This document shows positions 21,086-28,800 of a stretch of DNA of 64,000 nt, in pieces. Source of the DNA: Atrichornis clamosus (Eukaryota > Chordata > Aves > Passeriformes > Menuridae); contig WBMZ01015305.1 in NCBI GenBank assembly GCA_013400975.1, forward strand, positions 1 through 64,000, read 5' to 3'. The stretch's first letter is position 1, and each line of letters starts with the position of its first letter. The notes under the pieces are model-generated. The model ran no database searches, was not told the origin of the DNA, and saw only the letters and a program-made list of their open reading frames with translations. The position numbers and the translations under genes are program-made.

Positions 21086-21091
21086 AATAAA
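21086..21091 (+). other. Poly(A) signal of UNC45B
   Basis: A perfect AATAAA lies 515 bases after the UNC45B stop and is followed within about 35 bases by a GT/T-rich stretch (tctgttctgattttatt). This is the usual layout of a cleavage site. No earlier AATAAA occurs in the 3' UTR. Confidence 0.75.
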
Positions 21092-21099
21092 TTCACTAC

Positions 21100-22240
21100 T
21101 TTGTTCCATGTGGAATTTCTGTTCTGATTTTATTAAGCAAAAGGAGGATGTAAGGCAAGTCTCACTTGTAGTTTTGCATCACACCTGGAAAACTGGAGTA
21201 ATTGGTAGCACAGGCTGATTTTTCACCCTTTGCAAACCATCCAGTGCTGCCCAAATGCAGCAGAGTCACCACAAAAGGCTTTACGACAAGGTGGGCACCA
21301 AGGGGTTAAGCTGAGGTTCACACCAGGGCACAGTGTTTGGCTCAACAGGGAATGTTGAAAATATTTATCGAAAAAGTGGAATGAGAAGCAACGCACCAGT
21401 TGGTCTTCACATTAAACTTCATTATATAAATGTTTTCATTCAAGCACAAACTCCTAATGCATTCTGTGGACAACAGAAAAAAATCACAGACCCTTGCTTT
21501 AGTCCCTGGGGGGAAGTCCCTAAGCATGTAGTAAATATAATCTTTCTCAGCGATGATTTACATGTGAATTCAAGCGCATTAAAATATTTCTGGTTATGCT
21601 AAGCATCAGTGATGTCCATGATAGGCATAGCATGATGAAATGTTGATGTCTGGGGCTTATGGGGATAGTCTTTTCTTGCATGTTGATTACGGGGGGGGGA
21701 AAAAATCAATGGAAAGTGCCTCTAGTATCCTGTCTTTGGAAAAGATTAAAGATTTTAAGCTAATAGGTTTGATGACCTAAAGGCAAATTTATTCGGAGGG
21801 TGATTCCAGCTGTGTACAATGTCTTCTCCTCATTGCAAGCACATTTAGTTAAATCACTGGTGCTTTATAATCACAGCAGGGGGATATCAGACTGTTCTTC
21901 CAAATCAAGGGAGCCACATTCTGTGGTGAAAAATATGGTTTGTTTTCTACCAGCCTTCAATTTTTGGATATCCAGTTTAGGGGATTTTGAATCTGTCTTT
22001 TGGAAGTACTTTATATTAACTCTATACAGTTTTATCTAACCAGCATTTCTGACACCAAGACAAAATGCCATGGGTATTGAAGGGCAAAGTTTTCTTTCTC
22101 CCACTAAAGTTTCTCTTTGGAGCAACTGGGTTCTACTAAGCCGTGTTGATTGCTGCTGAAGTTGAGTGGGGAAATAACTTCTGTAAAAGCCATTTATTGG
22201 CATTTTTCAGCTAAAACATGGACAGAACACCCACCCCACA
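21100..22240. other. Non-coding interval after UNC45B
   Basis: The sequence is A/T-rich, with a short G run at about 21690, and no recognisable exon or repeat family. The open frames are short and unsupported. I see no gene here. Confidence 0.5.
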
Positions 22241-22730
22241 CCGACGCAGCCCTCACTCCCCCTCAGGCTTCCTCAGGGCGGGAAACGCTCGCACCGCCCC
22301 CAGCTCCTCTAACGCGCCCTCCTATTGGCTCCCGCTGCTCCCCGGCAGAGTCGTGCACTGTCATTGGTTGTTTCCACTGAGGGGCGGGGCAAAGCGGGCG
22401 GCTCCGCCCCGGCGCGTCTGGGCCTGCGGGGGGGGAGCGGCGTGAGGGGACACGGGGTACCGGGACACGGGACGTGGGACACCGGGGCTGGGTAAAGAGG
22501 GTCCGGGGGTTGTGGGACCGCGGTGGGGCAGGTGAGGGTTCGCGGTGTGGGAGTCCAGGGCTAGGGAGGCTGAGGGAACGCGGAGGCGGCTGTGGGAGCT
22601 GGCTGAGGGGGCTGAACCCGACGGAGGTCGGGCATGTGGGGATTTGCGGGATGGGGGAGGATATCTGGAAGCTTGGGGGATGCGGGGCTGGGGTAGGGCG
22701 GACACGGGCAGAGGAACTGGTTACTTAAGA
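22240..22730 (+). promoter_or_regulatory. Isolated CpG-island promoter between UNC45B and PEX12
   Basis: A CpG island stands about 1.2 kb beyond the UNC45B poly(A) signal and nearly 6 kb from the PEX12 start, so it belongs to neither. It contains two inverted CCAAT boxes (ATTGG at 22324-22328 and 22363-22367) followed by a GC box GGGGCGGGGC at 22381-22390. This is the classic order of a housekeeping promoter firing rightward. The following 300 bases are strongly G-rich. Reading into it I find no conserved protein; the first recognisable product is the snoRNA 0.7 kb downstream. Confidence 0.65.
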
Positions 22731-24080
22731 GCTGCAGGGACCTGGGGTAAAAATACAGGGAAGGAGATGGAAAACAGTGTAAACGAGTGGCATGAGGGAA
22801 GGGTGGGATCCAAACAGGCCTCTGGACCCTTGGAGAGACACTGTCTGCAGCAGCATTTATAGGTATGACACGGTTTTTAACTCTTAGGTTTGCCTGGTAC
22901 TGGCTCTCCTAATCTTGGAAACCCAGCTTGTGACCTGGCTTCCCCAGCTCCTGCGGGGTTCCAGGAGGGACGTCACCTCCTTTCCTGTGCTCCACTGCTA
23001 CACGTGCTTCATCCTCCTAGGGAGGGGGGAAACCTTCCAGCCCCTGGCTTGGGAGCCAGCTCCTTATTGAAGGGAAATAAACTTGCCCAAAGCAATGATG
23101 AGCGAAGTATAGTCTGAACTGGTATTGCTGAGATGTTGTGTCTCTGCTCTGACCAGGGAATGATCACTTAATCTTCTCTCTGAGCTACTTTAGGCTAAGC
23201 TCCTCTGGAGGAAACAGCTTTGCTGCTTCTTGAAACTTTGATGCACCCTAAGAAAAAAAAACCTAAGAATTTTTAGCAATTTAACGGGAGAAAAACAAAG
23301 CCTTGATTTGAAAAGTATGTAACTCAAATACTTGTTGCTGCAGCATTAGTGTGAGCTTGCAGTGAGGGGAGCTTCTTGGGTTTTCTTCTACGTGTGAGGT
23401 GGATCATGAAATTCCAGGTACTCTGCCACTGTATCTTCTATGTAAGTGCAGTGCAGACTCTGTAAGATGAAGTTTTAGCTGTCTGTCCTGTCGCTGCTCA
23501 TTAGCAGTTGGTTCAGCTGTATTCTCATCCAGCAATTGCCAGCAGGGAGCCAGAAGTATTTTTGGAATACTCTTGATGAAGTGCAGCCCCTTTGGGTTTG
23601 GGGACAAAGGCTGGGCTAATCAGACAAGTGCAGGAAAAGAGATGGAGCTATTCTCTCACTGAGTTTTTTGTTCCTTTCCAGGTGCTGATGACATCTCTAT
23701 ATTGATTTCTCTCTTCCTATGGGGAATATATACCTAGGAGTGTGTTACGGTGATTTCCCCTTAACAGGAGAAGGCACTTTGTTCTGTTAAGGAAGTAGGA
23801 AAAGCAGCTCTGTTGCTTCATGCACTAATTTTTGAGCACTGCCTAGATGTGCTGTGATTGTGCTGTAGATTGACTAATCATTTTTTAAATGACTTGCAAA
23901 GTCAAGTTCTGGCAGTGAGATACTGAGCAACTCCAGTGCTGTTGTTAATGTTGATGAACTTGTACTAAGCAACAACAAAGCATCCTGAGGGCGTATATGA
24001 TACATGACTGTATAGAAATCACAAATTAGTATGTAAGCCCAAGGGTTGGTTTAATAAAGTTGATGGTCTCTGAAAAATCT
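22430..24080 (+). ncRNA. Probable non-coding host transcript of the SNORD7-type snoRNA
   Basis: This unit is inferred from parts. There is a rightward CpG-island promoter, an acceptor-like ttttaactcttag at about 22876-22888, and another (aatttttag) ending at 23276. The second is about 80 bases after the snoRNA, the usual spacing for intron-encoded C/D snoRNAs. An AATAAA follows at 24053-24058. No conserved open frame runs through it. The ends and exon boundaries are guesses. RNA evidence would show whether the snoRNA is intronic or independently transcribed. Confidence 0.35.
23085..23195 (+). ncRNA. SNORD7: C/D-box snoRNA guiding U6 A47 2'-O-methylation (SNORD7 class)
   Basis: The C box ATGATGA is at 23095-23101 and the D box CTGA at 23180-23183. 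Immediately before D, TAATCTTCTCT (23169-23179) is perfectly complementary to U6 snRNA nucleotides 43-53. The fifth base upstream of box D (T23175) pairs with U6 A47, exactly as the D+5 rule for mgU6-47/SNORD7 requires. The flanks form a terminal stem: 23085-23092 (GCCcAAAG) pairs with 23188-23195 (CTTTaGGC) with one mismatch. An internal CTGA at 23114-23117 and TGAGATG at 23129-23135 fit D' and C'. The C-to-D span of 89 bases agrees with the roughly 97-nt human RNA. As I recall, human SNORD7 lies between the Schlafen cluster and PEX12, so the position also fits. U6 was recalled from memory. Confidence 0.85.
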
Positions 24081-24089
24081 TCTCTTGTC

Positions 24090-26090
24090 TATCTTTAGCC
24101 CATCGTGGTTTTAAGAACACTGTTACAAAGTAGATAAATGGGAATTTTTCTATAACCCCTGTTGGTTTTGTAGCTTCATTTTAGAGCAAGAAACCTGATA
24201 AATGGGTATTTATTTGGCTGCTAAGGACAGGAAGTTTTAAAGGAGCCAAATCCAAGTAGGCATTGTGAGCCCTCTACAGGAACACAAAAAATCTGCCAGG
24301 TAACTGCTGAGCCTGTCACCATTGCGAGTTTAATGCCTGTTACTCAGCTAGGTTTTAAAGGGCAATTTTATGTGTAAAAGAGTAATTACAGCTGCTCAGA
24401 ACTGAGGTTTAGATGTGAGTAGTTCTGTGCAGGCCTTGGAGTTGGCCATATCGAAGTTTGGCAGGGACAAAGTGCAGTGGGGCATGGAAAGCAGCTAGGG
24501 CCTGGCAGGCGGGCACCTGGTGGGCATTTTGGGGAGAGGAACAGATTAATCCTGGGAGAAGGAGCTGTAGAGATCCTGGAGCAGTGTGGGATCAGGTCTT
24601 GCTGTTCAGCCACTGGTGAATCCTGGATCAGAGGGAGGATGGTGCAGAACCTGTCCAAGAGCCCTGCAGTGCTGGTGGGTGAGTCAGCACTGGTCAGTCT
24701 GTCCCAGGCCTGCCCAGCTTCTCCCTGAGCAGCAGACAGATAACTTGGAATGTATAGGAAGGATAAAAGGAAAATAAACCTATCCTGAAGTGGAATCATC
24801 AGTTAAATGATCATTTAAATGAGCAGTTGCACTGGAGTAACCAGGACATAAACATCCAGCCCAAAGCCAGCCCCATAAAAAGTGATTTGAAACCTCAGAA
24901 AATCTCACTTTGATGTGCTTGTTCTTCTAGTAAGATGTGTGTGCTCTTACTGGCTCTCTAAAGGAAGAGAGGTGTCCATGGATCCTGTAGCTACTGGAGA
25001 AGGAAGAAATGAGAGGTTTTATTATTCCATAGTGGCACAGGTAGAAGGGTAAGGAAGGTGTACGGAGATAATAAAGCATCAGGAACAAATCTCGTTTATT
25101 ACAGGGGTTTTTCAAAGCATCTTTGGGAGGATGCAAATTACTGTATTTTCCCGCATTATTCAATAACTGTACTCTCTTGCTTACAGGTGAGGGAGGATAT
25201 TGGAGATTTTTATCTTCTGAAGCAGAGCTAAAGTGGAGGGAAAAATGAGATGCCTGGTTCAGTGGATTAAATGTTGGAAGATATCTTAATATAGAAAGAC
25301 CAAAGTGGGATCCTGTTCTCCCCTGTACTTTGTACAGCAAACTTGGCTCTTGTATTCTCTAAGCACTGTCACAATGATATCTGGAGCACTGCTGCTCCCT
25401 AGAGTCAGGAAAACAACCTTCCATCCTGAAAAATCAGGTGTCAAGCAAGAGCTAACCATGTCACACGGGTTTTCTTTCCTCCTGTGTTCAGTGAAAGGAT
25501 GTTTTGTTAGGATATGAATGTGCTACATGGCTGGGACTGGAATAATTGCAATATAATGCTTAGACATGAAAGATTCTCAGCTTACAAAATGCTAATCTTA
25601 CATCCACTATCATCACGTGAGAAGGTGAAAGCAGCTTTAGTCTTGTCTCTCTTATGTAAATAGAGCCCCCAGAGGAGCATACTGTTTTTCCAATAACCAG
25701 AAAAGAATTAAATTAGGTTCTCAATCAAGAAAGAATTTTGCTTTATAAAAGCAGAATGCAAAGACTTACTTAACAATAAACCACTCTCATCAGTTGGCAG
25801 TTTCTGTTTTAATCTGGTTTGTCACTTTTGTGCAGAAAATGTCACATCCCTCTTGTTCCTTTAAAGAATCAAAAGTCTTAATTTAGAACCGTTGATGGGA
25901 ATTAGGAGGGTGGTGTTCTCAATTCCAAGGTGAAGAGCCTGAAAATTCAGGAGACTGAAGAGCAGCATGACCAGAGCAGAGGTTTAAGCCTTTCTCCACC
26001 TCTGACAAGGACCAGTGTCAGAGCTCACCCTGGGCAGCACGAGGGCCTGGAAAGCTGCTCAGGGAGGAAAAACTTGCCTGGAGATCTTCC
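24090..26090. other. Non-coding interval before the PEX12 3' end
   Basis: I recognise no exon, repeat family or RNA here. A reverse-strand ATTAAA (plus-strand TTTAAT at 26098-26103), 330 bases beyond the PEX12 stop, may be the PEX12 poly(A) signal. The mammalian Schlafen genes would be expected in this interval but are absent. Confidence 0.45.
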
Positions 26091-26429: not shown

Positions 26430-28546
26430 TCAGCTCTCGGGAGAGTACAGTTTGACCAGGTGCTGCAGCTCTGTGGCATAACCTGTGACGGGGCAGCGCT
26501 GGTGAGTCTTCACATAACCGTAGATGCAGCGGTAGCAGAACACAAAGCCGGACGTGGCCAGGGCCGTGGCGTTCACGCGGATCTTGCGGCACAGAGGGCA
26601 CACGGTCTTCAGTTTGGGCAGCAGAGCTGAGCTGGCCTCGTGGTCCAGGTGCACAGGGGGTGGGGGAGTTGGGAGCGCTGTCAGAGACTTGATGGTCTCC
26701 TGGTTTTCCGAGGAGTACCACCAGTCCAGGAACTGGAGGAAGAACACGCTGACGGACAGTCCGGTGGACAGGGAGAAGGCAATGCCACCCAGAGCTTTCC
26801 TCAGGGCCAGCTGCACTCGTGATGTAAAGCTGTAGCAAAGAGAAGTAGGGAGAGATGGTTACTGCTGCACATTTATCCACCTAGAAACCATGGGAAAAAG
26901 CATTTGGGGAGTCACTGCTTCATACAGCTCCTTAATGCTAAGTAAGCTGGTCAGCGTGTCCCGTGTTTGTAACGAGGCACTTATTAGGATGTTTCAAATT
27001 CTTTATATTTTAAGAAAGATCCAAATCCTGTTTTGTTCAGAAGTCTAAATCAGAAGAGTTTGGATTGAGGGGACCTGGACCACAGAGTGTTTCACTCCTG
27101 GATCACCATTTCACAGGATATTAAGTGTGCTCATGAATAGCTGCTGCTCAGGGAAATCAAAGAATTAAGTTTTGATCCTTTTAGCAACATTGCTCAGTCT
27201 ACTTCTCCTGTTGGAAAAGTGCGAGGGAAGGCTGAACAGAATAAAGGCTTGTGTGCCCCCAAACGCTGCAATTTTATTACCACAAAATCCTTTTAAGCTA
27301 ATCCCTGCTACTTATTTCCTTATTTTCACTAACAATACACCCTTTTGGAGCACATTTTGCCAGAGAGAACTTTCATCTTGAATTTTTGGAGAACAAGGCA
27401 CTTTTACTTGCAGCCATCACCTTTAAATTAACACACTCACGGAATCTCCTGGAGAGCAGCTGAGCCAGGTTCTGACATACCTGTGTGTTTGATTTGAGGT
27501 GGTTTCAGCCCATTTCCTCTCCAGGGCCTGGATATCCTCTGGAGTCAGCCTGACTAGGCGAACACCAGCCAGCCTCAGCATGGGGGAATGATGCTCAGCT
27601 TTCCCGAGGATGTAGCAGAGTTGCTGGATAAGAAACCAGCCCTCCCAGGTCATGTTTACAAAGGGGTAGGCAGCTAGAAAGGCTCTGTAGAAGCGCTTCC
27701 AGGATGACGATGGAGGGTGGATGGAGTACTCATCCTCTTCCCTCAGGCTGGACACCAGTTTCTCCAGCTTTCCTTTCAGGTAAGGAACAAGAACCAGCAG
27801 GAGCAGAGACTTCCAGTGCTGCCTCTTTGGCAGGCCAGCTGTGGCCAGAGGCTGCTGTTTGCCATTTCCCATCGGGATCCTCTTCAAGCTATAGAAGTTC
27901 TCGGAGAAGGATGCGCTGCAGTTGGCCAGGTAGTGCTGCTGGAGCAGCAAATCCAGAAGGACGTAGATCTCATCAAACCAGCGCCACAGGAAGCCGTATC
28001 GGCCAGGATTAGACTCAGCAAGCACCTGTTGTGAAAGAGACATAAACCAAAAGGAATCACAGAATGGTTTGGGTTGGAAGGGGCATTTAAACCATTTGGT
28101 TCCACTCCCTGCCATGGACAGGGACACCTTCCGCTAGACCAGGTCGCTCCAAGCCCTGTCCAGCCTGGATTTGGACACTTCCAGGGATGGGGCAGCCACA
28201 GCTTCTCTGGGCAACCTTTGCCAGGGCCTCCCCCCCTTACAGGGAAGGACCTGAAAGCGGAGTAATGTGCTAAATTATAAACTACAGCAGCTATAAGTCA
28301 TGCCTCTAGTTCACAACACAAGCCAGGTGGGTCACAACTGTCCCGCTGCTTGTGAGTGCGGCCGGAGGTACATCCCGTTCCCCCTCCTCTCCCCTCACCC
28401 GCGGCCCGCCTCGCCCTCACCTTAACCAGGTGCTGCAGGGCGGGTTTCACGGCGGACATCAGACTGTCCTGGGCCACCGCCTCGAACACGGACGGTCGGT
28501 CCCCGCCGGCCGGGGCGGCCGTGAGGTGCGCGCCCACCTCCGCCAT
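26430..28546 (-). CDS. PEX12: PEX12, peroxisomal RING E3 ligase subunit, complete
   Basis: PEX12 is a peroxisomal membrane RING protein that works with PEX2 and PEX10 to ubiquitinate and recycle the import receptor PEX5. Three coding exons join in phase: 28546-28421, 28025-27481 and 26829-26430 (stop). They encode 356 aa against 359 in human. The N-terminal half carries hydrophobic helices of the PEX2/10/12 membrane channel. A further hydrophobic stretch lies at about residues 238-260, followed by a proline-rich linker and the C-terminal RING with cysteines at 301, 304, 322, 325 and 336. As in other PEX12 proteins this is a degenerate RING lacking a full zinc-ligand set. The start is firm because M-A-E-V-G-A-H aligns with human; a longer upstream frame on this strand is only GC-rich promoter sequence. 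The linker around residues 216-230 is the most diverged part. Intron 1 contains a CR1 fragment. Confidence 0.97.
28056..28256 (-). mobile_element. CR1 LINE 3' fragment in PEX12 intron 1
   Basis: The plus strand reads tcacagaatggtttgggttg, then a form of 'ctgccatggacagggacacc' and 'ggacacttccagggatggggcagcc', the complement of the standard CR1 3' region. It is 5'-truncated. It lies in the same direction as PEX12, about 30 bases upstream of its exon 2. Confidence 0.88.
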
Positions 28547-28800
28547 GACACCGCCGTGCCGCCCCGCCACCAGAGGGCGCCCCCGCCTCGCCCCGCCGGA
28601 CGCCGCTCCGCCCCTCCTCCCGGAAGCGCGGACCGCCGGCGCTCCTCCCGCTCCCGCCGCTCTATGGTGACGGGGCGCGGCCGCTCTGGGCGGGGGAGGG
28701 TTTGATCTCGCTGCTCGCGAGTCCGCCCGTCCCCATCGCTTCCGGTTCCGCCGCCGCCCCCGCAGCGGTGAGTCCGGTCCGTGAGTGGGGCCAGGGCGTG
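28350..28800. promoter_or_regulatory. Bidirectional CpG-island promoter of PEX12 and AP2B1
   Basis: The PEX12 start codon (28546, minus) and the AP2B1 first-exon donor (28767/28768, plus) lie 220 bases apart, head to head within one CpG island. ETS-type sites face each other: CCGGAAGC at about 28619-28626 and CTTCCGG at 28739-28745. A palindrome CTCGCGAG at 28714-28721 resembles the BANP-type TCTCGCGAGA motif. There is no TATA box. Human PEX12 and AP2B1 have the same divergent arrangement, consistent with joint housekeeping control. Confidence 0.8.
28650..28767 (+). other. AP2B1: AP2B1 non-coding first exon (5' boundary approximate)
   Basis: A strong donor GCG/GTGAGT at 28767/28768 in the CpG island, on the AP2B1 strand, matches a 5' UTR exon that would splice to the acceptor at 32914. 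The transcription start is not visible, so the left boundary is a guess. The resulting intron 1 is 4.1 kb. Confidence 0.6.

Follow-up and report, generated by a model that had tools for sequence, protein, structure and literature searches.

The stretch of DNA analyzed here (the window; 64,000 nucleotides, positions 1 to 64,000 of contig WBMZ01015305.1, Atrichornis clamosus assembly GCA_013400975.1) raises the question of whether the interval between the genes UNC45B and PEX12 encodes a genuine small nucleolar RNA (snoRNA), which RNA it would modify, and from what transcript it would be released. A first-pass annotation, made from the letters alone, had placed a SNORD7-class snoRNA at 23085-23195 and named an Rfam search as a check. 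In a covariance-model scan with Rfam 15, we identified a full-length match to RF00288 (snoZ30) at 23090-23187 on the forward strand (100.7 bits, E-value 1.5e-20, model positions 1-97 of 97), a score about twice the gathering score of 50 bits, so the proposed coordinates proved right and the search returned the family expected. This was the sole match at gathering score across the whole window, and a focused scan of 22700-23600 recovered the same match along with 4 others, all under their own gathering scores. Judged from its sequence, the locus is very probably (about 0.96) a bird-like copy of the snoRNA gene SNORD7, also called snoZ30 or mgU6-47. The type of locus is already known, with the chicken counterpart, GGgCD81, cataloged by Shao et al. 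2009 (PMC2653536).

The elements of a box C/D snoRNA were in place, with a box C of the form RUGAUGA toward the 5' end and a box D, CUGA, toward the 3' end, both within the interval given at first reading (Table 1). The 11-base guide UAAUCUUCUCU next to box D is the exact complement of the U6 string AGAGAAGAUUA, which is contained in a 20-base U6 primer from a goose study (PMC10095183). Counting the first base of this primer as U40 agrees with the human U6 marks Psi40, m6A43, Am47, Am53, and Gm54 as published (PMC7960923), so the guide spans U6 43-53, with A47 opposite the base 5 positions upstream of box D. The earlier claim of a perfect 11-base guide in precisely this register was thereby confirmed through published U6 letters. 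A wobble between U23168 and G54 adds a 12th pair, giving a guide/U6 duplex of 12 pairs with an energy of -14.5 kcal/mol. From the guide register and family membership, the SNORD7 RNA would be expected to direct fibrillarin to 2'-O-methylate U6 at A47. This nucleotide lies within the ACAGAGA stretch of U6, which ties the mark to splicing.

Could box-like words have simply aligned by chance? Several observations weigh against the snoRNA assignment and have to be set beside the family match. Box C with a box D 45-130 nucleotides downstream occurred 7 times in the window, compared with a mean of 8.15 in 40 first-order surrogate sequences, so that box pairs by themselves are at chance level, as a coincidence would have it. 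Pairs that also carried a strict four-pair stem near the boxes numbered 0 in the window against a mean of 1.3 in the surrogates, and the locus itself lacks such a stem. The predicted fold of the 111-base segment does contain an outer stem (GCC.AAAG/CUUU.GGC) of 7 pairs and 1 mismatch, but 69 of 200 shuffles were at least as stable (z = -0.42), so this stem adds little support; the terminal pairing of the Rfam model comprises 3 bases. Of the terminal stem claimed in the first-pass annotation, the pairing thus reappeared in the predicted fold, whereas the energy was ordinary and the strict four-pair form was absent. Further, the U6 letters used for the target are those of the published goose primer and not of a U6 gene in this assembly. 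The guide changes the picture for a chance alignment: a box C/D pair with a guide matching at least 9 of 11 positions was found once in the window and 0.025 times on average in the surrogates, and the exact guide with the box D word is expected only 0.00015 times per 64 kb from base composition. Because of the covariance-model match, whose E-value already refutes coincidence, we consider the choice between chance and a real snoRNA settled, with chance left a practically negligible probability.

A snoRNA-like sequence may also be a pseudogene, decayed or retroposed and giving no RNA product, and screens of the human genome, as reported in PMC3349704, returned mostly nonfunctional retrogenes among such sequences. 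We searched the assembly (1.01 Gb in 11,269 contigs) and obtained a single match, the SNORD7 locus, both at the DNA level and with RF00288; no second copy was found by either search, the latter having scored 52 of 114,559 first-look candidates. The only copy found adjoins PEX12 as in human and has intact boxes and guide, and Shao et al. suggest a mammalian origin of retroposed snoRNAs and their scarcity in chicken (PMC2653536), which together make a pseudogene very improbable at this locus.

Capital letters in an Rfam consensus denote well conserved positions, and most positions of a guide-like element upstream of box D' are of this kind (Table 1). SNORD7 could accordingly be imagined as a double guide, acting on U6 A47 through box D and using the 23102-23113 element to direct or assist an interaction with a second RNA, which we consider unlikely from the sequence. 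No target for the element was found among the places in the genome that carry its complement, where the five other loci had no Rfam family at gathering score, and the table entry for chicken GGgCD81 gives a 3' guide only (PMC2653536). The energy of the hairpin between D' and C' was matched or beaten by 10 of 1000 mononucleotide shuffles.

The surroundings of the locus were read from protein-domain and structure matches. Exons of an UNC45 gene were identified on the forward strand, including the UNC45-central domain at 15 kb and a C-terminal exon that matches UNC-45 structures and whose frame closes just past 20568. On the reverse strand, the 26430-28133 region holds a frame with a Pex2/Pex12 domain and a RING-finger frame, the latter under its Pfam cut-off, and a forward-strand frame at 38 kb encodes an AP beta subunit, with AP-2 beta as the best match and AP-1 beta a close second. 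We take the names UNC45B, PEX12, and AP2B1 from these matches in combination with the known gene order. The snoRNA lies approximately 2.5 kb downstream of the UNC45B stop codon, on the same strand, with the PEX12 stop codon 3.2 kb away. In human, a single 181,927-bp duplicated segment holds SNORD7, PEX12, AP2B1, SLFN12L, SLFN14, LINC02001, and LOC107985033 (PMC9822900). PEX12 and AP2B1, the neighbors of human SNORD7, are both present in the window, with names given partly through domains and gene order, and the mammal-like position next to PEX12 pointed out at first reading holds. A CpG-rich stretch at 28401-28800 (observed/expected ratio about 1.0), just upstream of PEX12 on its strand and on the side of the forward-strand AP2B1, is possibly a shared two-way promoter of these 2 genes.

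Another CpG-rich stretch, at 22201-22800 between UNC45B and PEX12, is likely a promoter, with no coding gene recognized there; it includes 2 copies of ATTGG, the inverted CCAAT, at 22324 and 22363. We propose, as the somewhat more probable arrangement given the sequence, that in birds the snoRNA belongs to a noncoding host gene on the sense strand, whose transcription would start in this stretch at 22.2-22.8 kb and whose intron 1 would contain and yield the snoRNA. The intron 1 donor is the top-scoring site in about 22301-23090, and the acceptor the top-scoring site in about 23211-24400; on the forward strand of the 64 kb, 7 donors scored at least 11.2 and 3 acceptors at least 10.7, and true exons of the neighboring genes may be among them. 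Joining the proposed exons gave no ATG frame beyond 23 amino acids with any of three assumed starts. The host of human SNORD7 is listed as LINC02001 (PMC6466398), of which the proposed gene may possibly be the counterpart.

Other evidence counts against this host proposal. The splice-site weight tables were textbook values, and the sites were chosen as the best of their stretch. The host of SNORD7 is left blank in a table of PMC6023535, and chicken GGgCD81 is entered in intron 1 of the mRNA CR389942, marked as oppositely transcribed (PMC2653536). Because the listed chicken host is antisense, a sense host in birds remains a proposal. The same antisense entry and the human table without a host, together with the UNC45B stop codon upstream on the same strand, would suit a correct snoRNA that has its own promoter or a differently structured host, such as UNC45B read-through or another exon arrangement, which may be the case although we hold the odds to be somewhat against it. 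Polyadenylation signals, the first at 21086, separate UNC45B from the snoRNA, which is enclosed by the CpG-rich stretch and the top-scoring splice sites. No 3' box of the small nuclear RNA type was found, with the one pattern used, within 213 bases downstream of the snoRNA, and vertebrate snoRNA genes are described as nearly all intronic, with own promoters named for SNORD3, SNORD118, SNORD13, SCARNA2, and SCARNA17 (PMC3349704).

Table 1. Features of the SNORD7 locus and of its proposed host gene, in window coordinates.
Feature	Position	Strand	Remarks
SNORD7/snoZ30 box C/D snoRNA gene (Rfam RF00288)	23090..23187	+	full-length covariance-model match
Possible outer stem, 5' arm GCC.AAAG	23085..23092	+	predicted fold, no stabler than shuffles
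Box C, AUGAUGA	23095..23101	+	from sequence
D'-side guide-like element	23102..23113	+	9/12 positions capital in Rfam consensus
Box D', CUGA	23114..23117	+	D' label from position; further CUGA at 23128, 23149
Hairpin lying between D' and C' (closing stem CUGGU/ACCAG)	23119..23156	+	-15.2 kcal/mol
Box C'-like, UGAUCA	23161..23166	+	C' label from position
Guide UAAUCUUCUCU	23169..23179	+	complementary to U6 43-53; A47 at D+5
Box D, CUGA	23180..23183	+	from sequence
Possible outer stem, 3' arm CUUU.GGC	23188..23195	+	predicted fold, no stabler than shuffles
CpG-rich stretch, proposed host promoter and first exon	22201..22800		observed/expected 0.65-0.88 in three 200-base bins
Proposed host intron 1, containing the snoRNA	22532..23681	+	putative donor CAG/GUGAGG, acceptor UUCCUUUCCAG/GUG
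Proposed host exon 2	23682..24075	+	putative; AATAAA at 24053; end approximate

The analysis annotates a conserved housekeeping RNA gene correctly, and the sense-strand noncoding host proposal adds a small value relative to the antisense-only host entered in the chicken catalog. Chicken GGgCD81 has U6-A-47 as its target and an 11-nucleotide guide (Shao et al. 2009, PMC2653536), and the present locus is likened to it by these two features; the two differ in the listed host, CR389942 being antisense and the host proposed here sense. Am47 of human U6 is assigned to SNORD7 as its guide (PMC7960923), and loss of TFIP11 in human cells was reported to bring methylation of A47, C60, and C62 down to about 50%, with less fibrillarin-bound SNORD7 (PMC8599867). 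The locus resembles the human gene in this guide, in PEX12 and AP2B1 within the same segment, and, if the host proposal holds, in a noncoding host (LINC02001 in human), whereas the human segment contains SLFN genes and the window has UNC45B on that side, SLFN genes not having been searched for. In fission yeast, deletion of snoZ30 is described as abolishing methylation of U6 A41 (PMC10484740), a nucleotide that would correspond to human A47; the likeness of our locus to this namesake lies in its match to the RF00288 family model and in the yeast guide's U6 target.
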